Source of the DNA: Syntrophales bacterium
GTDB lineage: Bacteria; Desulfobacterota; Syntrophia; Syntrophales; UBA2210
Reading direction: 5' to 3'
Assembly: GCA_028718565.1 (NCBI GenBank)
Contig: JAQULO010000007.1
Span: 1-55,320, forward strand
DNA length: 55,320 nucleotides
A program made the translations under genes and the position numbers. Below, one piece after another: positions 11,990 through 26,011 of the stretch (its first letter is position 1; every line of letters starts with the position of its first letter). The notes below the pieces were generated by a model. The model was not told where the DNA came from and made no database searches. It saw only the letters and a list, made by a program, of their open reading frames with translations.

Positions 11990-12105
11990 ACACGGCAAGT
12001 TGGAGAAAAGCATTTTGAAGTGCAAAGATCGGTCGACCATGTCCATTAGAATTTGGAGGCCTTTTTTATTCAGTCATAATGGTAATCCGACTTTGAAAAA
12101 CTTAA

Positions 12106-12324
<219 letters not shown>

Positions 12325-12347
12325 ACAGTAGTGGTATTGAAAAGAAT

Positions 12348-12387
12348 GCACTCTGCGGTTTTTGTAAGCTGCAGAGTGCTTTTTTTT
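12348..12387 (+). terminator. Intrinsic terminator of the cold-shock gene
   Basis: A perfect 9-bp stem GCACTCTGC/GCAGAGTGC (12348-12356 and 12371-12379) with a 14-nt loop is followed directly by eight T (12380-12387). Confidence 0.92.
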
Positions 12388-14755: not shown

Positions 14756-14794
14756 ATCTCATCAGCATTTTCCCGGGCTTAGTTCTTTAAGAAA

Positions 14795-14873
14795 CTGATA
14801 AAGGCAAACTGCTCGTGAGGGTAGGACGCAAAGCCATGGGTCATCCATTTGATATGATTGCCAGGCTACCTAG
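14795..14873 (+). promoter_or_regulatory. Cyclic di-GMP-I (GEMM) riboswitch
   Basis: The conserved GEMM-I elements are in order: AAGGCAAA, a stem CTGCTC/GGGTAG closed by the GNRA tetraloop GTGA (14817-14820), GGACGCAAAGCC (14823-14834), a second variable stem-loop, and the 3' GCCAGGCTACC. This class binds c-di-GMP and controls genes for motility, adhesion, surface structures and secretion. The downstream operon encodes an HTH protein, an ExeA-like ATPase and a TPR protein. I cannot see a clear terminator or ribosome-site switch, so on/off polarity is open. Confidence 0.85.
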
Positions 14874-15221
14874 GTTTTTCCCTTCATAATTTGTTTTATA
14901 TCTCCGGCACATCGATTCAGCTATAACCTGATTCTCATTTCGCATTGTAATTCTTAAGATTCCAAATAACTGAAAAAGCATAAGTGCTTGGTTAATCATC
15001 ATATGTGACTTAAAATGCATGGCGATGGTACATGTTAAAATTGTTATTTTAAAGTTTCTTAGTCATTCCTGGTCGGACCGTGAAGAGATTGAGCAGAAAA
15101 GCCATCGGGGAGAATCTGTGTTGTGCAAAAAATCAAGCGACGAGGAAAACTCACGGCATATTATTAAGAAAGCACTTCTGCTGAATCAAAGTTCGTCATT
15201 GGGTTAGCAATGAGGAGTATT

Positions 15222-15773
15222 ATGGAAAAGATCTGCATTGTTCGAAGAAGAAAAAGAAACATTCAAGGAGTTGGACCGGGGGTAAACTATATCTCTGATA
15301 AAGAAATGATGCCGAATCAAGGTTTGGGCTTGGTTTTATCTCAAGCGGTGAAAAGTGATATCTGTGCAGATGAAAGGGGAAAGGCTCCTGTTGATGAAGT
15401 GGCTGTGGATAAAAATGAAATGATTTCCTTTAATTTGACTCCTGAGCAGTGCGAATTGATTCGGTCCGGCAATTTCGCTGAGTATTTGTCGAGTGGGTTA
15501 TCAATAGGTACGGCTCTCAATGTGCAGAAGGAGAAAGACGGGCAAATCAGCTTAAACTTTCATTTTGCTCGGGCAAATGCACTGAGGATGCTTCAAATAA
15601 AGCATGTATGCGAGATGCTGCAAATCAGCAGAAGTTTTTTGGGAAAGCTCGTCAAGACAAAAAGGCTGAAGAGCTATAAAATAGGCGGACTCAGGCGTTT
15701 TGCCTTAGAAGATATACTTGAGTTTCTTACCAGAAACGAATGTCTTGAAACGCCAGAGTATAAGGTGTTGTGA
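15222..15773 (+). CDS. DNA-binding protein with C-terminal excisionase-type helix-turn-helix
   Basis: A 183-residue soluble protein. The N-terminal 110 residues are unrecognised and contain a basic start (ICIVRRRKRN). The C-terminal part (about 120-170) has a MerR/excisionase-type HTH: HVCEMLQISRSFLGKLVK then a wing-like KSYKIGGLRRFALEDILEFL. I chose the ATG at 15222, 4 nt after GAGGAG, over the ATG at 15210. It is the first gene downstream of the c-di-GMP riboswitch and is followed by the ExeA-like ATPase 58 nt later. I infer it regulates or recruits for that unit; nothing else of a prophage is nearby. Confidence 0.75.
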   Translation: MEKICIVRRRKRNIQGVGPGVNYISDKEMMPNQGLGLVLSQAVKSDICADERGKAPVDEVAVDKNEMISFNLTPEQCELIRSGNFAEYLSSGLSIGTALNVQKEKDGQISLNFHFARANALRMLQIKHVCEMLQISRSFLGKLVKTKRLKSYKIGGLRRFALEDILEFLTRNECLETPEYKVL

Positions 15774-15831
15774 TGTTGATGGTAATTGTTGCTGAACCAT
15801 TTAACAAGATATATAAAAATGGAGAAATAAC

Positions 15832-17202
15832 ATGTATTACGAATACTGGGGTCTGAGAAAACCGCCGTTTGACAATGTCCCCGATCCATCCATGTATGTG
15901 GACAGTCACGTGTCGATGGAGAACGCTATAGCAGAAACCATATTTGCTATAGAGGAGGGGGGGGAAAGTGTCGCAGTCATTGTAGGTGATGTGGGCTTGG
16001 GCAAAACCTTATCTCTGCGTATGATTATCGATTCTTTAGACCAGGAAAAATATAAAATAACTCTTATCACCAATCCGAGCATCACCTTTTCCCAACTGGT
16101 AAAAGAGATCATCGGTCAACTTACGGGGAAACCATGCGATAAAGCGAGAAAAGTGGACCTGCTGGAAATCTTCAACAAAATCTTGTTTGAGACCATAGAT
16201 GAAGGTAAAAAAGTTCTAATATTTATCGATGAAGCAAATGCCATATCTCCTGCAAACCTTGAAAACTTAAGATTACTTACCAACATGCAAGATGATCAAA
16301 GGAATTTATTTACCATGGTCCTTGCCGGGCAAAGCGAATTTGCCCGGCGACTGGAGCATCCCCGGCGAGCCAATCTGTTTCAGAGAGTAGGAACTTATAA
16401 CAAAATAGAAAAAATACAATCTGAGGCCTTATTGAAAGCCTATGCCGAAACCCGGGTCAAACTTGCGGGGGGAACGAGGAAGATTTTTACTGACGATGTC
16501 TTTAATCCATTATGGAAACACTCTGAGCATGGAGTCCCCCGTCTTATTAATAAAATCTGCAAATTATCGTTGAAGGCAGGTGAAACAAACGGGCTGGAAC
16601 TCGTTACTGGTGAGATGATTGACCAGATAGGTCAACGTTTTCAGAGGTCGTCTGGTTCCGTTTCACAAAAGAGAAGGCCCAGAAAAAGATTCGGGGAGGA
16701 AGTTATAGAGAAGGAAGCCCTGATGAGAGAGCTTGAAGCAGAAGAAGTCTTGGGGGATCACGAAAAACATATAACTGTACCGTTTATGGAGGACTCAGAT
16801 TCAAGGAGAGAGCCAGCTCCCGTTGAAAAACCCGCTTCGGTTGAAAATGTAACTATTGAAGAAAAAGGGCAACCCCATTTCGTTTTTGAAAAAGTCGAAT
16901 CAAATAAATTGCCACCGTGCCCCGGGGAAACCACCGCAGCTGAGCACAGAAAATCGGCAATAGTAGAGATTGGGGATATGAGGGCAACGGTAAGCCTTCC
17001 TCCCGAGATCCTTAAACAAGCTGGGTCCTGCTCTAGCAGGGAGCATCGCGTTAAGTTGGCGGGGGTTATGGCAGCACGGTTTCTTCAGCAACATCCAAAC
17101 TTTACGTCTTCACCCCTTTCTGATCCAGTTGACATATGGGGCAAAATTAGGGAATCCGTTCTGAATATGCTTGAGGAGGAAAAGAAACTTGGTGTGATGT
17201 AG
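15832..17202 (+). CDS. ExeA/GspA-like AAA+ ATPase
   Basis: A 456-residue protein opening with the family hallmark MYYEYWGLRKPPFDNVPDP. Walker A GDVGLGKT (52-59), Walker B FIDEAN (131-136) and the AAA lid segment ending GVPRLINKICKLSL follow. In type II secretion ExeA helps assemble the outer-membrane secretin through a peptidoglycan-binding C-terminus. Here the C-terminal 185 residues are a charged, unrecognised tail with no membrane segment, so the partner may differ; transposon TniB/IstB-like ATPases share this fold. GGAG precedes the ATG. The gene lies between the HTH and TPR genes in a riboswitch-led operon. Confidence 0.85.
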   Translation: MYYEYWGLRKPPFDNVPDPSMYVDSHVSMENAIAETIFAIEEGGESVAVIVGDVGLGKTLSLRMIIDSLDQEKYKITLITNPSITFSQLVKEIIGQLTGKPCDKARKVDLLEIFNKILFETIDEGKKVLIFIDEANAISPANLENLRLLTNMQDDQRNLFTMVLAGQSEFARRLEHPRRANLFQRVGTYNKIEKIQSEALLKAYAETRVKLAGGTRKIFTDDVFNPLWKHSEHGVPRLINKICKLSLKAGETNGLELVTGEMIDQIGQRFQRSSGSVSQKRRPRKRFGEEVIEKEALMRELEAEEVLGDHEKHITVPFMEDSDSRREPAPVEKPASVENVTIEEKGQPHFVFEKVESNKLPPCPGETTAAEHRKSAIVEIGDMRATVSLPPEILKQAGSCSSREHRVKLAGVMAARFLQQHPNFTSSPLSDPVDIWGKIRESVLNMLEEEKKLGVM

Positions 17203-17223
17203 ACTCCTTGTTCCTGTTCTGTC

Positions 17224-18174
17224 ATGAAAGTTTCTTCCATATCAAAACAGCAAGTCCCTGTGGACAAAAAAACGATTGCGAGAGAATGGTTTGTTCAGGG
17301 ATGTCGATATGACAATCTTGAACCCGACTCGGACCGAGCCATAGAAGCTTATAGAAAAAGTATAAAATTTGATAATAAATCTACTGATGCCTATGTAAAT
17401 TTGGGATTTATATATCTCAAGAGGGGGAGGCATCATGACGCACTGAAATGTTTTGAAAAAGTAGTTGGGCTGGAACCGAACAACCCGGAAAATTACAATA
17501 ATTTGGGTTATGTATATGAAAGAATGGAACTGATCGGTAGTGCAAAACAGATGTATGACCAAGTATTGGAGATAGACCCTGATAATATTGAAGCAATGCT
17601 CAATATCGCCCAAGTCATGGAGTCTGAAGGAAACTATCACGGTGCTATACAACAATATAGAAAAACTATAGAAGCAGATCCTCATGCAGCAGCCTCCCAC
17701 TTCTGCCTAGCTGTCTTATATGACCGGCACGATATGTTTGACGAAGCGATACAGGAATACCAAAACGCCCTGATCGAAAATCCCGATTATCTTAAGGCCC
17801 TCTTTAATCTTGGGACTATTTATGTACAACTTGGCGACTATCCAAGGGCCGTTATTTTTTTTGAACGTGTATTAAAATTGGAGCCCGATAACGCAGAGGC
17901 ATGGAATACTCTGGGCTCTATTTACGAGGAAATAAAAGTTTACGACAAATCCGTTGCTGCCTTTGAACGGTCAGTTTCAATAAATCCTCTTCGGGAGGAG
18001 ACCCATCTTAATCTGGCGCGTATAGAATACCTTGAGTATTATTCAGCCCCGGATAGTTCAAAGAAAGAAAAGCTTTCTCGAAGGCTCAATTTTATCCTGT
18101 CCGTAAATCCGCATAATAAGAAAGCACAAAAGCTCATAGAGGAGCTAACCGGGACATATTTGAAACAAGCCTAG
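17224..18174 (+). CDS. Tetratricopeptide repeat (TPR) protein
   Basis: A 316-residue protein of about seven TPR units (for example AYVNLGFIYLKRGRHHDAL, then NYNNLGYVYERM, then AWNTLGSIYEEI), with 34-residue spacing from about residue 20 to 270. There is no clear signal peptide, so it is probably a cytoplasmic protein-protein scaffold. It starts 21 nt after the ExeA-like gene and ends the riboswitch-led operon. A short inverted repeat ACAAC/GTTGT (18183-18197) follows but lacks a T-tract. A scaffold for the ATPase is a reasonable inference. Confidence 0.9.
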   Translation: MKVSSISKQQVPVDKKTIAREWFVQGCRYDNLEPDSDRAIEAYRKSIKFDNKSTDAYVNLGFIYLKRGRHHDALKCFEKVVGLEPNNPENYNNLGYVYERMELIGSAKQMYDQVLEIDPDNIEAMLNIAQVMESEGNYHGAIQQYRKTIEADPHAAASHFCLAVLYDRHDMFDEAIQEYQNALIENPDYLKALFNLGTIYVQLGDYPRAVIFFERVLKLEPDNAEAWNTLGSIYEEIKVYDKSVAAFERSVSINPLREETHLNLARIEYLEYYSAPDSSKKEKLSRRLNFILSVNPHNKKAQKLIEELTGTYLKQA

Positions 18175-21441: not shown

Positions 21442-21679
21442 GGCAGCATTTCTCCTGTCGGGTACAGAGGTTTCCTCCTCGCGGGGGGAATAGCGCACCC
21501 CCCCATGTCCTGGGTTGTGCAGTGTCTCAAGTCGGGGGTCAATACTAATAATTCCCGGATATGTTGTCAATTAATAACTTAACTTGGAGAGATTTGTATA
21601 GTTGAAGCTTCGATTTGGTAATTGATATTTTCCACTACCACATAATCCCGAAGACTCACAGGTAAAACCCATTTTTTTG

Positions 21680-21708
21680 TTGACAATAGTATCCCGAGTC
21701 ACTATATT
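21680..21708 (+). promoter_or_regulatory. Consensus sigma-70 promoter of the ars cluster
   Basis: TTGACA (21680-21685), exactly 17 nt, then TATATT (21703-21708), 29 nt before the arsR ATG. An ArsR-type repressor normally binds across such a promoter; I see no clear operator palindrome. Confidence 0.75.
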
Positions 21709-21736
21709 CCAAAAACACGATATGGAGGTAGCGGGT

Positions 21737-22081
21737 ATGAAGACATTTATCAAAGTAATGAAGGCCCTGTCGGATCCGAGTCGTGTCAAGATTATAAAGA
21801 TGCTTCAGAAGCGGGTTATGTGCGTCTGCGAAATCAAGGAGGCCCTCGGTGTGGCCCAGTCCACCGCCAGCAAGCACCTGAAGATCATGGAAGACGCCGG
21901 CCTGATTGCCTTTCATAAAGAGGGGCTGTGGGTCAATTACACACTTGCCGACGGTAGCTCAAGCCCCTACGCGGCGAGCCTGATCGGCAACCTGAAACAC
22001 TGGTTGGAGGATGATCCGGAGGTTGCCGGGCTGGCACTGCAACTGCCACACATCCACCGGGAGGACATTTGCGGAAGATAG
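21737..22081 (+). CDS. arsR: ArsR/SmtB-family metalloregulator
   Basis: A 114-residue winged-helix repressor that releases DNA on binding As(III) or a related metal. The winged-helix core is clear: FIKVMKALSDPSRVKIIKML, then the metal-box cysteine segment RVMCVCEIKEALG (the ArsR CxC), then the recognition helix QSTASKHLKIMEDAGL. The ATG at 21737 follows GGAGG; an upstream in-frame start at 21677 precedes the promoter. It heads the cluster of permease, thioredoxins, CcdA-like protein, ACR3 and others, so it is the likely autoregulated switch. Confidence 0.93.
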   Translation: MKTFIKVMKALSDPSRVKIIKMLQKRVMCVCEIKEALGVAQSTASKHLKIMEDAGLIAFHKEGLWVNYTLADGSSSPYAASLIGNLKHWLEDDPEVAGLALQLPHIHREDICGR

Positions 22082-22196
22082 GGCATTTTTTGTCCACACT
22101 GAATCGTAATATCGCGAAACATGAAATCCATGGACAGGGAATACGATCCTGATGATTTTCGGCAAATCGAAGGAGAGACAAGAGGAGTTTGTATCA

Positions 22197-23369
22197 ATGA
22201 AAGAACGAACCAAGTTGCTGCTGATCGTCGCTGTCTTTCTGGCGGCCTATTACATTCCGTGGGACCACCCGCTGATACGACAGTCCGGGCTCGAGGCATT
22301 CATGATGCTCCAGGAGTATGCACGACTGCACGTCCTGACCTGCCTGGTCCCCGCCTTTTTCATTGCGGGGGCTATTGCGGTCTTTGTCTCTCAGGGAGCG
22401 ATCCTGAAATATTTCGGCGCCCAGGCCAACAAGTTTCTGTCCTATTCGGTGGCCTCGGTCTCCGGCTCCATCCTGGCAGTCTGTTCGTGTACGGTCCTTC
22501 CGCTCTTTGCCGGGATATACACGCGGGGGGCGGGTATCGGTCCGGCGACGGCCTTTCTCTATTCGGGACCCGCGATCAACATACTGGCCATTACGCTCAC
22601 GGCAAAGGTTCTGGGCTGGCAGATGGGGTTGGCCCGCGCCGTCGGTGCGATTGTCTTCGCCCTTGTCACCGGCCTGCTGATGGCGCTGATCTTCAGAAAG
22701 GACGACGCGGCTCGGACCGCCGGACAGATCTATGTTCCGGATGCCGATAATAGAAAGCGCACCCTGCTGCAGGACGGCCTGTATCTTCTGACTATGGTGC
22801 TGATCTTGGTCTTCGCCTCCTTTGCCCGGCCGAGCTCCGACGCGACCGGTTTCTGGCCGGCGATCTTTGCCTATAAATGGTACATCACCGCCGCCTTTCT
22901 GCTTATCCTCGTTTTCATGGTTAATGCCTGGTTTACCAGGGATGAACGCGTCGCCTGGGTGGAATCGACCTGGGGGTTCATGAAACAGATATTTCCCCTT
23001 CTGATCGGCGGTGTCCTGGTCGCCGGGTTCATGCTGGGGAGGCCGGGTCATCCGGCCCTGATTCCGGAGCACTATGTCCAGTCGCTTCTGGGAGGAAATT
23101 CGCTGTGGGCCAACCTGTTTGCCTCGGTCGCGGGCGCGCTCATGTACTTCGCGACCCTGACGGAAATACCCATCCTGCAGGGGCTCTTGGGCTCCGGAAT
23201 GGGAAAAGGTCCCGCCCTGGCGCTGCTTTTGGCCGGGCCGGCCTTGTCACTGCCGAGCATGCTGGTGATCGGGAGTGTAATGGGTGTCAAAAAAACGGTC
23301 ACCTTCTGTGGTATCATCATAGTTATGTCCACGGTCGCGGGGCTGCTGTACGGCAGCCTTGCGGGATGA
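22197..23369 (+). CDS. ArsP-like permease (COG0701/DUF318)
   Basis: A 390-residue inner-membrane permease with about ten helices. The hallmark CSCTVLPLFAGIYTRGAG (about residues 98-115) followed by FLYSGPAINILAI is typical of COG0701 permeases, and the motif recurs in degenerate form in the second half (ATLTEIPILQGL; LLAGPALSLPSML). Members include ArsP, which exports trivalent organoarsenicals; others are uncharacterised. The ATG at 22197 (after GAGGAG) begins a normal membrane protein. It sits between arsR and a small thioredoxin-like gene, the usual partner for this family. Confidence 0.88.
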   Translation: MKERTKLLLIVAVFLAAYYIPWDHPLIRQSGLEAFMMLQEYARLHVLTCLVPAFFIAGAIAVFVSQGAILKYFGAQANKFLSYSVASVSGSILAVCSCTVLPLFAGIYTRGAGIGPATAFLYSGPAINILAITLTAKVLGWQMGLARAVGAIVFALVTGLLMALIFRKDDAARTAGQIYVPDADNRKRTLLQDGLYLLTMVLILVFASFARPSSDATGFWPAIFAYKWYITAAFLLILVFMVNAWFTRDERVAWVESTWGFMKQIFPLLIGGVLVAGFMLGRPGHPALIPEHYVQSLLGGNSLWANLFASVAGALMYFATLTEIPILQGLLGSGMGKGPALALLLAGPALSLPSMLVIGSVMGVKKTVTFCGIIIVMSTVAGLLYGSLAG

Positions 23370-23395
23370 GAGTTTCTGGAAAAAGGAGACGAAAA

Positions 23396-23629
23396 ATGGA
23401 AATCAAGGTATTGGGACCGGGTTGTTCACGGTGCCAGCAAACAGAAAAAGTAGTCAAGGAAGCGGTGGCGGAGGCCGGCGTGGAGGCACAGATCGAGAAG
23501 GTCAGCGATGTCATGAAGATCGCCGGTTACGGCGTCTTCGGAACGCCGGCGGTGGTGATCGACGGCGTGGTGAAGAGTGTGGGGAAGATCCCCGACAAGG
23601 AAGAGGTCAAGAGGTGGCTCAACCCTTGA
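23396..23629 (+). CDS. Small thioredoxin-fold redox-active disulfide protein
   Basis: A 77-residue protein, MEIKVLGPGCSRCQQTEK, with a CxxC at 10-13 and the cis-proline strand YGVFGTPAVVIDG (about 46-58). It belongs to the glutaredoxin-like group often encoded beside COG0701 permeases and arsenic genes. It probably reduces or carries a thiol-bound metalloid in the cytoplasm, or keeps the permease cysteines reduced (inference). Strong AAAAGGAG before the ATG; 26 nt after the permease. Confidence 0.9.
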   Translation: MEIKVLGPGCSRCQQTEKVVKEAVAEAGVEAQIEKVSDVMKIAGYGVFGTPAVVIDGVVKSVGKIPDKEEVKRWLNP

Positions 23630-23733
23630 TGCCCATTGCTTGAATAAAAAAGATTGACAAACCCGTAAAAGGTCCGAAACATCTTCTCCTTTGATGAGGG
23701 AGGGAAAAACTCTCTTTTTACGAGACCATCAAG

Positions 23734-23751
23734 ATTGATTCAATTGATTCA
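23734..23751 (+). repeat. Tandem 9-mer upstream of the exported thioredoxin gene
   Basis: ATTGATTCA occurs twice head to tail (23734-23742 and 23743-23751), overlapping the ribosome-site region of the next gene. A TTGACA lies about 80 nt upstream without a good -10. It might be a regulator site. Confidence 0.35.
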
Positions 23752-23766
23752 AAGGAGAATATTAGC

Positions 23767-24159
23767 ATGAAATCTCGTTTAATATTGGTTCTGGCCGTGA
23801 GTGCCCTGTTTCTGGCCATGACGGCGGGTGTCCTGCCGGCTGCCGAGCAGACTACGGACTTTGACAGCGTGCCCGTCAAGGGAATGGTCACCATGATCGA
23901 CCTGGGGGCAAAGACGTGCATCCCCTGTAAGATGATGGTTCCCATCATGGTAAAGATGGACAAACTGTACGAAGGCAAAGCCGCCATTGTGTTTATAGAT
24001 GTATGGCAAAACCGGGAGCAGGCCGGGCGGTTCGGCATCCGGGCCATCCCCACGCAGATCTTCTTCGATTCGGAGGGGAAAGAGGTCTACCGACACGTCG
24101 GATTCATGGCGGAAGAGGATATCATCGCACAACTACAGAAGATGGGCGTATCAGGATGA
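23767..24159 (+). CDS. Exported thioredoxin-family protein
   Basis: A 130-residue protein with a signal peptide (hydrophobic core LILVLAVSALFLAMTAGVL, cleavage near PAAEQ) followed by a thioredoxin domain. The active site is CIPCKMM (about residues 52-58), and the cis-proline is in GIRAIPTQIFFDSEG. It probably works in the periplasm, re-reduced across the membrane by the CcdA-like protein encoded 31 nt downstream. Good AAAGGAG before the ATG. In this setting it could keep an exported or surface arsenic-binding protein reduced, but this is inference. Confidence 0.92.
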   Translation: MKSRLILVLAVSALFLAMTAGVLPAAEQTTDFDSVPVKGMVTMIDLGAKTCIPCKMMVPIMVKMDKLYEGKAAIVFIDVWQNREQAGRFGIRAIPTQIFFDSEGKEVYRHVGFMAEEDIIAQLQKMGVSG

Positions 24160-24190
24160 GAAACCGTGGAATCGAAGGGAGCAGGCATAG

Positions 24191-24916
24191 ATGTTTGATA
24201 CTTTCTTATTAACGATTAACCAGTGGATCACCGGTGATGTGGCCCTTTCCGCAGTAGGGTGTTTCCTGTGGGGGGTGGTGAGCGCCCTGCTCAGCCCCTG
24301 CCACATCGCTTCGATCCCTCTGATTGTCGCATATGTCGGCGGCCAGGAACGGGCCGTCAATCCGAAACAGGCTGCCATCTATTCGGTGCTCTTTACTACC
24401 GGCCTGTTTATTACCATTGCCTTGATCGGAATCATCTGTGCCCTGCTGGGCCGCATGCTGGGAGACGTGGGTAACTACTGGCAGGTCCTGATCGGAGCCA
24501 TACTAATCTGGGTGGCCCTCGGCATGCTCGGCGTGGAGAAATGCTCCATGTCCGGCAACCTGCTGTATCGCCTGAATGTCAGGGGGATAACGGGGGCCTT
24601 TCTTCTGGGTCTGGCCTACGGCGTCCTCTCCGGGTCCTGCACCTTCGGTTTCATCGCGCCGATTTTGGCCATCATTACCATCCAGCAGAAGGTCGCTACC
24701 GGTATCTTCCTGATCGTTCTGTTCGGCATCGGTCACTGCCTGCCGATCGCAATTGCCGGAAGCTCGGCGGCCGCCGTCCGGAAGCTGATGGAGAACAGCA
24801 CCTGGCAGGGGGCGGGCACCTGGTTCCGCAAGGGTGCGGGGGTACTGATAGGTCTGCTGGGAATCTACTTTGTCATCAATCCGTTTGCGGGCGTAATCAA
24901 TACGATCATATCGTAA
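24191..24916 (+). CDS. CcdA/DsbD-like transmembrane thiol-disulfide transporter
   Basis: A 241-residue membrane protein with six predicted helices. The paired functional cysteines lie in LLSPCHIASIPLIVAYVGG (first helix, about residue 37) and GVLSGSCTFGFIAPILAI (fourth helix, about 149), the CcdA pattern. It moves reducing equivalents from cytoplasmic thioredoxin to the periplasm. Its immediate neighbour is the exported thioredoxin. In the classical case this feeds cytochrome c maturation; no cytochrome genes are present here, so supply to the thioredoxin and arsenic cluster is more likely. Confidence 0.9.
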   Translation: MFDTFLLTINQWITGDVALSAVGCFLWGVVSALLSPCHIASIPLIVAYVGGQERAVNPKQAAIYSVLFTTGLFITIALIGIICALLGRMLGDVGNYWQVLIGAILIWVALGMLGVEKCSMSGNLLYRLNVRGITGAFLLGLAYGVLSGSCTFGFIAPILAIITIQQKVATGIFLIVLFGIGHCLPIAIAGSSAAAVRKLMENSTWQGAGTWFRKGAGVLIGLLGIYFVINPFAGVINTIIS

Positions 24917-24925
24917 GAGGTGGTG

Positions 24926-26011
24926 ATGTCTCAGACGAAACAGCTTTCATTTCTGGACCGTTTTCTGACCCTGTGGATCTTCCTGGCCATGTTTATCGGC
25001 GTCGGAGGTGGGTATCTCTACCCTGACATCCGCAGCGTGATTAATGAGTTTCAGGTCGGCACTACCAATATCCCCATTGCCATCGGTCTAATACTGATGA
25101 TGTATCCACCCCTGGCCAAGGTGAAATACGAACACCTTGATCAGGTGTTTAAAAATTTTAGAGTGCTTGCGCTCTCCCTGGTCCAGAACTGGATCATCGG
25201 TCCCATCCTGATGTTTCTTCTGGCGATTACCTTTCTTTCGGGTCGGCATGAATACATGGTGGGCCTGATTCTTATCGGTCTGGCCCGCTGCATCGCCATG
25301 GTGATCGTCTGGAACGACCTGGCTGCCGGCGATACGGAATACTGCGCGGGGCTGGTGGCGTTCAACTCCATCTTCCAGGTTCTGTTTTTCTCCGTTTATG
25401 CCTATATCTTCATTACGGTGATCCCGCAGTGGCTGGGCCTCAAAGGGGTCGTGGTGGATATTTCCATCGGGCAGATCGCGGAGAGTGTCTTTATCTACCT
25501 GGGCATCCCCTTCATCGCCGGCGTCATCTCCCGGGTGATCGGCCGGAAGACAAAGGGCAAAGAATGGTATGAAAAAAAGTTTATTCCCAGAATCAGCCCG
25601 ATTACATTGATTGCACTGTTGTTTACCATCCTGGTGATGTTTTCACTGAAAGGCGAATACATTGTCCAGTTGCCGCTGGACGTCATTCGGGTGGCGCTCC
25701 CGCTTTGTGTCTATTTTGTGGTCATGTTCTTTGTGTCATTCTTTCTGTCAATGAAAACCGGCGCCACTTACGAGCAGTCTGCGACCTTAAGTTTTACGGC
25801 GGCATCCAACAATTTCGAGTTGGCCATTGCCGTGGCCGTGGCGGTTTTCGGCATTGATTCTGGGGTGGCGTTTGCCGCGGTAATCGGTCCTCTGGTAGAG
25901 GTCCCTTTATTGATCGGCCTAGTCAACGTGGCCCTCCGGCTTAAGAAGAAATATTTTCCCTACGCCGTGGGAACCCCCACCGGTGTGTGCCATCTGTCCT
26001 GCCAACCCTGA
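24926..26011 (+). CDS. acr3: ACR3-type arsenite efflux transporter
   Basis: A 361-residue, ten-helix member of the ACR3 (bile acid/arsenite/riboflavin) family that extrudes As(III) by proton antiport. The conserved cysteine of helix 4 is present in [13 protein letters not shown], and the helix-9 [20 protein letters not shown] segment matches ACR3. The ATG at 24926 follows AGAGG; the first frame start at 24920 is a GTG inside the ribosome site. It starts about 10 nt after the CcdA-like gene, a clear operon link. Main arsenite exporter of the cluster. Confidence 0.94.

Follow-up and report, generated by a model that had tools for sequence, protein, structure and literature searches.

A recurrent HTH, AAA+ ATPase and TPR gene trio of Desulfobacterota, preceded by a c-di-GMP-I riboswitch in a Syntrophales genome

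What does an ATPase related to the type II secretion factor GspA/ExeA do next to a gene for a DNA-binding protein and downstream of a riboswitch for cyclic di-GMP (c-di-GMP)? The question is raised by contig JAQULO010000007.1 of a Syntrophales bacterium (assembly GCA_028718565.1), of which the 55,320 nucleotides analysed here are referred to as the window. A c-di-GMP-I aptamer is followed there by three genes encoding a helix-turn-helix (HTH) protein, an AAA+ ATPase and a tetratricopeptide repeat (TPR) protein. As detailed below, this singles out a compact three-gene module that is spread over several families of Desulfobacterota. Judged by sequence, our preferred, though tentative, interpretation is that the trio is a soluble, DNA-tethered derivative of the GspA/MshM-TPR partnership, which in the window would be under c-di-GMP control and might act together with surface structures, possibly type IV pili, that c-di-GMP regulates. 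The searches revealed no curated family for the three-gene module and, by title and abstract, no report on the trio or on c-di-GMP-I riboswitches in Syntrophales, in a literature coverage that leaves out most subscription journals.

Recurrence of the three genes

The ATPase was searched in 100 relatives, where 24 loci matched at E 1e-114 or better and the next match reached 1e-43, and its profile was run on 395 genomes of the phylum, which gave 19 matches at E 1e-60 or better, four of them already among the 24. One match (G137, 2.8e-63) looks like a different paralogue and was left out. Searching by the ATPase alone yields 38 loci. Among these (BLAST thresholds 250, 60 and 90 bits; in family f38, HTH adjacency was judged with that family's own HTH protein as query), a gene of the same HTH family is adjacent at 35, directly 5' of the ATPase gene, and a TPR gene lies within 1.2 kb at 29. 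With 14 loci fetched by an HTH match added, the HTH gene is found at 49/52 and the TPR gene at 40/52; a locus whose contig ends within the HTH gene (G495) was excluded, and the contigs of G489, G492 and G217 end too early for the TPR gene to be judged. Altogether, the HTH gene is present in 35 of the 155 genomes of the order and in 14 of the 395 genomes of the phylum sample, one of which (G333, 6.5e-9, HTH part only) lacks a match to the family ATPase. One clade has the TPR gene in inverted orientation, still at a distance of 14-48 nt.

The flanking genes are unrelated between module loci. Those typed in the window are ABC-F, Tex and HlyIII, and those of two relatives (G033 and G067) are RodZ-like, inositol monophosphatase, radical SAM, BrkB, solute-binding, ABC transporter, TsaD-family and M50 peptidase genes. 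No secretion gene or secretin was recognised among the typed flanking genes of these three loci, which for the window agrees with the sequence-only reading, in which no secretion gene had been seen nearby. The idea of a phage or plasmid module was rejected, as none of 50,697 phage records has an HTH match, plasmids gave AAA+ matches only (<60% identity, none over 80% of the query) and the PADLOC matches are weak. The supposition that the trio might recur is thus confirmed by the counts of HTH and TPR genes at the ATPase-found loci, and it is hardly in doubt that the three genes constitute a module.

Two variations in layout were observed along the way. In family f38 (L131, L128, L137) an overlapping HTH-ATPase pair is situated between genes that, read by eye, resemble parA/parB on one side and recO on the other, and in G048 (L038) two copies of the module stand side by side, a layout similar to that in G068, where the HTH gene is frameshifted.

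The proteins and their membrane-anchored relatives

The HTH gene (15222..15773, + strand; HTH_17, Pfam E-value 3.8e-11) most likely starts at 15222 rather than at 15210, where the open reading frame as listed begins, because the MEKICIV sequence is conserved in relatives and is preceded by GAGGAG. The predicted protein comprises a conserved N-terminal peptide, MEKICIV-RRRK, a variable linker, a beta-containing middle part and a C-terminal HTH_17 domain with an Xis/BldC-like fold. The peptide (15222-15254, +) is the best conserved part of the protein outside the HTH, is followed by a disordered linker, and suggests a docking motif. With the small MerR-type DNA-binding proteins Xis and BldC the protein shares the fold of its C-terminal HTH, whereas the long N-terminal extension carrying MEKICIV-RRRK and the tie to an ATPase gene set it apart; in Foldseek its model matches Xis and BldC in the C-terminal domain only, with none of the matches at E 0.001.

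The ATPase gene (15832..17202, +) encodes an AAA+ domain (residues 1-273; AAA_22, PF13401, 1.4e-19) in which the GDVGLGKT and FIDEAN motifs are intact and a GVPR motif lies towards the end, an acidic linker that is predicted to be disordered and varies in length between species (residues 275-371; 16654..16944, +), and a C-terminal domain of about 80 residues without a Pfam family (residues 372-454, beta-beta-alpha-alpha-alpha; 16945..17193, +). The enzyme is of GspA/ExeA type in its AAA+ domain only, and the suspicion that its C-terminus is unlike that of ExeA proved right. The C-terminal domain was found in 26 of the 395 genomes searched, namely in 18 module ATPases, in a truncated gene beside a TPR gene at a contig end (G102), in a separate small gene (G075) and in six weak matches (E 1e-4 to 1e-3; five in family f59, one in G471), so that it is nearly confined to module ATPases. 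Four of the six weak matches (L230, L231, L233, L235) are PlsX-like or acyltransferase-like reading frames and were dismissed by eye as chance, the other two (G205, G233) being unread. The small gene (L219:1498-1893, -) encodes 132 residues with the C-terminal domain only, has TsaB-like and M50 peptidase-like neighbours, as does the locus in G067, and looks like a remnant or stripped-down form.

The third gene (17224..18174, +) encodes the TPR protein (3.9e-45). By 19-residue hydropathy no transmembrane segment was found in any protein of the trio, the best means being 0.61 for the HTH protein, 1.40 for the ATPase and 0.67 for the TPR protein, and 19 further ATPase relatives without an internal-stop flag reach 1.26-1.55. 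Both the ATPase and the TPR protein are accordingly predicted to be soluble, and the module as a whole is predicted to be cytoplasmic.

Structure comparison brings in a first alternative. The best solved-structure match of the AAA+ model is MuB (8xvb, E 3.1e-5), and the 21 Foldseek matches at E 0.001 or better include Orc1/Cdc6, RuvBL, TnsC, clamp loaders and RuvB, while no sequence of the PDB matches the ATPase profile at E 0.01. Together with the HTH gene directly upstream of the ATPase gene at nearly all loci and the Xis/BldC-like fold of its product, this could point to a transcription-regulator cassette, in which the ATPase serves the HTH protein as an ATP-dependent co-regulator in the control of surface genes. 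Such matches are, however, common for AAA+ folds (the top ones have a TM of 0.21-0.27 of the query), and three loci have ATPase and TPR genes without an HTH gene, which leaves a regulator cassette as a possible but rather unlikely explanation. Regarding a comparison with the transposition adaptors MuB, TnsC and IstB, no transposase was recognised among the typed neighbours, which are only part of all neighbours.

A second alternative, that the ATPase takes the part of ExeA in a type II secretion system (T2SS) or type IV pilus system encoded elsewhere, is best judged against a paralogue in the same genome. On contig C27, genes for T2SSK, a PilM/GspL-like protein, T2SSM, an unmatched protein, T2SSC, a GspA-type ATPase, a TPR protein, a secretin and T2SSE (with an MshEN domain) stand in this order. 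The GspA-type ATPase of this operon has a strong membrane segment (best 19-residue hydropathy 3.31) and is 29% identical to the window ATPase over 270 residues, and the two TPR proteins resemble each other at the level of the repeats only. Since the operon holds a membrane-anchored enzyme of this type, the familiar GspA job is already served in this genome. The GspA/ExeA-type AAA+ domain, the order of ATPase and TPR genes shared with the T2SS operon and the four secretin matches in the genome would fit a role in secretin assembly, but without a membrane segment the window ATPase has no room for a periplasmic domain, the typed flanks contain no secretin, and an HTH partner is not a feature of ExeA. 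Given the absence of a membrane segment from the whole trio and the separate anchored ATPase of the T2SS operon, secretin assembly was rejected as the main explanation; the suspected role was not borne out and is regarded as improbable. In direct comparison with GspA/ExeA, the window ATPase is alike in its AAA_22 domain with Walker motifs, but it lacks the membrane segment and hence the periplasmic peptidoglycan-binding part of GspA/ExeA (PMC6532946), and neither a GspB nor a secretin neighbour was recognised beside it.

The best described counterpart of the ATPase-TPR pair is MshM-MshN of the MSHA pilus operon in Vibrio cholerae, where an ExeA-type ATPase is likewise encoded next to a TPR protein in a c-di-GMP-related setting (PMC4624765). 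The window pair differs in that it is predicted to be soluble, that an HTH gene comes first, that the ATPase has a new C-terminal domain and that no pilus genes were recognised alongside. The role even of the MshM-MshN pair is not settled, because deletion of mshM or mshN in Vibrio left pilus production near the wild type level (PMC4624765). Taken together, the trio resembles a soluble offshoot of the GspA-type ATPase-TPR pairing, which indicates that this partnership also exists in a soluble form with a DNA-binding partner.

The nearest curated models belong to yet another system, the XrtA/PEP-CTERM (exosortase) exopolysaccharide system, of which the trio could be a part. The XrtA-associated ATPase and TPR protein are indeed the best NCBIfam matches, and genomes that carry the HTH gene have an exosortase match more often than the rest (14/35 vs 23/120, Fisher p 0.02). 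The scores fall far below the cut-offs, however, at 151.6 bits vs 324.5 for the ATPase (TIGR03015, E 2.7e-44, residues 1-266), which is less than half, and at 128.3 vs 312.2 for the TPR protein. Furthermore, an exosortase is not needed, as 21 of the 35 HTH genomes lack a match to PF09721, even though the window's own genome has one. With the trio present without an exosortase match in G003 and G048 and with scores below threshold, this explanation is largely refuted and very improbable indeed.

The riboswitch and its leader

The aptamer upstream of the trio (14794..14874, +) consists of the P1 core, P2 with a GUGA loop and P3. It matches RF03167 (c-di-GMP-I-GGC), the best model of the clan, with 65.3 bits where the gathering score is 59 (E 3.1e-13; cmscan of the window), and RF01051 with 66.0 bits against a cut-off of 35 (14793-14873). 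The sequence-only reading had identified a GEMM-I riboswitch with a GNRA tetraloop and GGACGCAAAGCC and had named RF01051 as the check; both models agree with it, and the GNRA-type loop on P2 as well as GGACGCAAAGCC are present. The aptamer carries AAAGGCAAAC in addition, and we take AAAGGCAAAC and GGACGCAAAGCC to be G20 and A47 by Vc2 numbering. The RNA thus resembles the c-di-GMP-I class (GEMM-I, RF01051/RF03167) in its P1-P2-P3 layout, in the GNRA-closed P2, in scoring above both cut-offs and in the G at the c-di-GMP-selecting residue; it differs by a compact P3, by an A in place of a consensus G of RF03167 and by having no recognisable intrinsic terminator. This A follows GGACGC (GGACGC-A-AAGCC), it is also present in nearly all of 23 c-di-GMP-I aptamers compared, and at this position the RNA departs from the GGC variant model. 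A specificity for cGAMP was rejected because of the G, not A, at the selecting position by this numbering. As the aptamer has G20, while it is the G20A change that goes with 3',3'-cGAMP (PMC6274999), c-di-GMP is the expected ligand. That the RNA is a c-di-GMP-I riboswitch is as good as certain, and it is the only such match in this genome (2.53 Mb, 98.4% complete).

The P1 helix, which closes the three-way junction, reaches past the Rfam model by a 6-bp extension, in which AGAAAC (14790..14795, +) pairs with GUUUUU (14874..14879, +). Across 12 compact sub-type aptamers 67 of 72 cells pair, a value reached by 13 of 2000 shuffles; these aptamers were drawn from the loci collected here, and as both strands had been selected by eye, the test was not blind. 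The U-run 3' of the aptamer therefore belongs to P1 and does not end a recognisable terminator. Of the 12 aptamers, only 3 have a competing 5' hairpin in full, and this hairpin was dropped.

Between the aptamer and the first gene, about 350 nt downstream, lies a leader (14880..15221, +). An intrinsic terminator as expression platform was rejected, as a scan between 14380 and 15300 found none and the z-scores of folding range from 0.90 to -1.05, and an alternative hairpin of the window was not evident by eye in the corresponding leader of G048. The riboswitch upstream of pilM in Geobacter is reported to be a transcriptional ON-switch (PMC9262584), which is a lead, not evidence, for the switching mode of the window RNA. 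The leader also contains a reading frame of about 62 codons (15019-15207, +) that ends just 5' of the HTH gene; inspection by eye showed no such frame in the leader of G048, and it is probably due to chance.

The riboswitch as an addition to the module

Rfam scans covered all 52 loci and, for the first 100 genomes, the complete sequence; in G188 and G497 the contig offers only about 300-350 nt of sequence before the HTH gene. Three of the 52 loci have a riboswitch ahead of the module, namely the window (G000), G003 of the same family and one of the two copies in G048 of another family. In the ATPase tree, G000 and G003 fall into one small clade that also holds the riboswitch-free G002 and G068, and the G048 copy is placed elsewhere. 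The 100 relatives contain 106 riboswitches in 45 genomes, so that placement at random before any gene would put 0.009 riboswitches at the 24 trio loci, where three were found (P(>=3) 1.4e-7 if independent); with G000 and G003 counted once, P(>=2) is 4.5e-5, and shared ancestry is not corrected for in either value. The riboswitch is hence not part of the module, yet precedes it far more often than expected by chance, and the view of c-di-GMP control as a defining feature of the module did not hold up. These numbers also bear on the alternative that the riboswitch is incidental and controls little, with the operon transcribed mainly from a promoter in the 340-nt leader. The long leader without a terminator and the many loci without a riboswitch would agree with this, but the excess over chance, together with leaders of 188-350 nt and one shared aptamer sub-type at all three loci, makes an incidental riboswitch quite unlikely. 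Two further arrangements were recorded: a RF01051 match about 3 kb from the trio, on its other side, in G194, and two riboswitch matches directly in tandem at G017:C181:9270-9450.

A connection of these riboswitches to surface structures is suggested by the genes they head elsewhere. At 19 other riboswitch loci the downstream genes were typed with Pfam; five of these loci (L083, L085, L070, L080, L073) had been chosen for their pilus-like look. Type IV pilus-type genes follow at 8/19, the fair figure without the hand-chosen five being 3/14; they include pilM or pilN (G003:C35, G059:C67), a prepilin peptidase (G059:C11, G096, G045) and pilin-like N_methyl proteins (G072, G022, G083). In one riboswitch set, 11 of 20 loci were left untyped, of which G016:C125 was typed later (L066). 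Of the nine compact aptamers at loci other than the trio, three are followed by pilus genes and two are untyped; genes headed by this sub-type in other genomes include pilM and prepilin peptidase genes. The co-distribution with PilM is uninformative, as 153 of 155 genomes have a match. At L190 (G003:C35) and L201 (G059:C67) the compact sub-type stands before pilM as in Geobacter, without an evident terminator.

From these elements the following mode of action can be proposed. Rising c-di-GMP, to the turnover of which the 18 GGDEF matches of the window's genome would fit, would fold the aptamer and change transcription or translation of the operon. The HTH protein would bind DNA and dock on the ATPase via its conserved N-terminal peptide, by which the trio is probably tethered to DNA, the ATPase would pass through different states or oligomers, with the TPR protein as its tie to a client. 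As diverged, membrane-free kin of the ATPase-TPR pair in type II secretion and MSHA-type pilus operons, the module may serve in the cytoplasm as a switch or assembly factor that is tethered to DNA. In the few riboswitch lineages it would be co-expressed with type IV pili or other surface structures under c-di-GMP regulation. The trio may be an assembly module, as first proposed. More speculatively, and with rather low probability, the trio could represent a new class of cytoplasmic AAA+ machine, an ATPase-TPR pair minus membrane anchors plus a DNA-binding partner and a client-binding C-terminal domain, to which some lineages add a c-di-GMP riboswitch that links DNA to surface-structure assembly.

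Several observations weigh against the DNA-tethered, c-di-GMP-controlled derivative. The riboswitch is absent at 49/52 loci, including the same-genus G002, and c-di-GMP control is for this reason not essential to module function; in G048 it heads the copy that has no TPR gene beside it, and no terminator was found in the leader of the window. ATPase and TPR genes occur without an HTH gene in G060, G097 and G053, and no TPR gene accompanies the module in family f38 (five genomes, one contig being too short to judge), G059 and G005, so the module may be able to do without tethering to DNA or without its scaffold. In addition, the pilus link comes from a partly hand-picked sample, and confidence in both structure models is modest, with a mean pLDDT of 65.8 for the ATPase and 62.9 for the HTH protein. 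The riboswitch lineages nevertheless offer a handle, in that c-di-GMP should switch the module there and tests of expression and interaction could find the client.

Two features of the window lie apart from the trio. At 12028-12380 (+), a cspA thermoregulator RNA (RF01766) scores 79.7 bits, barely over the cut-off of 78, and overlaps an apparent cold-shock protein gene. Downstream of the trio, at 21677-26011 (+), reading frames for an ArsR-type regulator, an ArsP-type permease, thioredoxin-like proteins and an SBF-family transporter stand in a row and form an arsenic-type resistance cluster.

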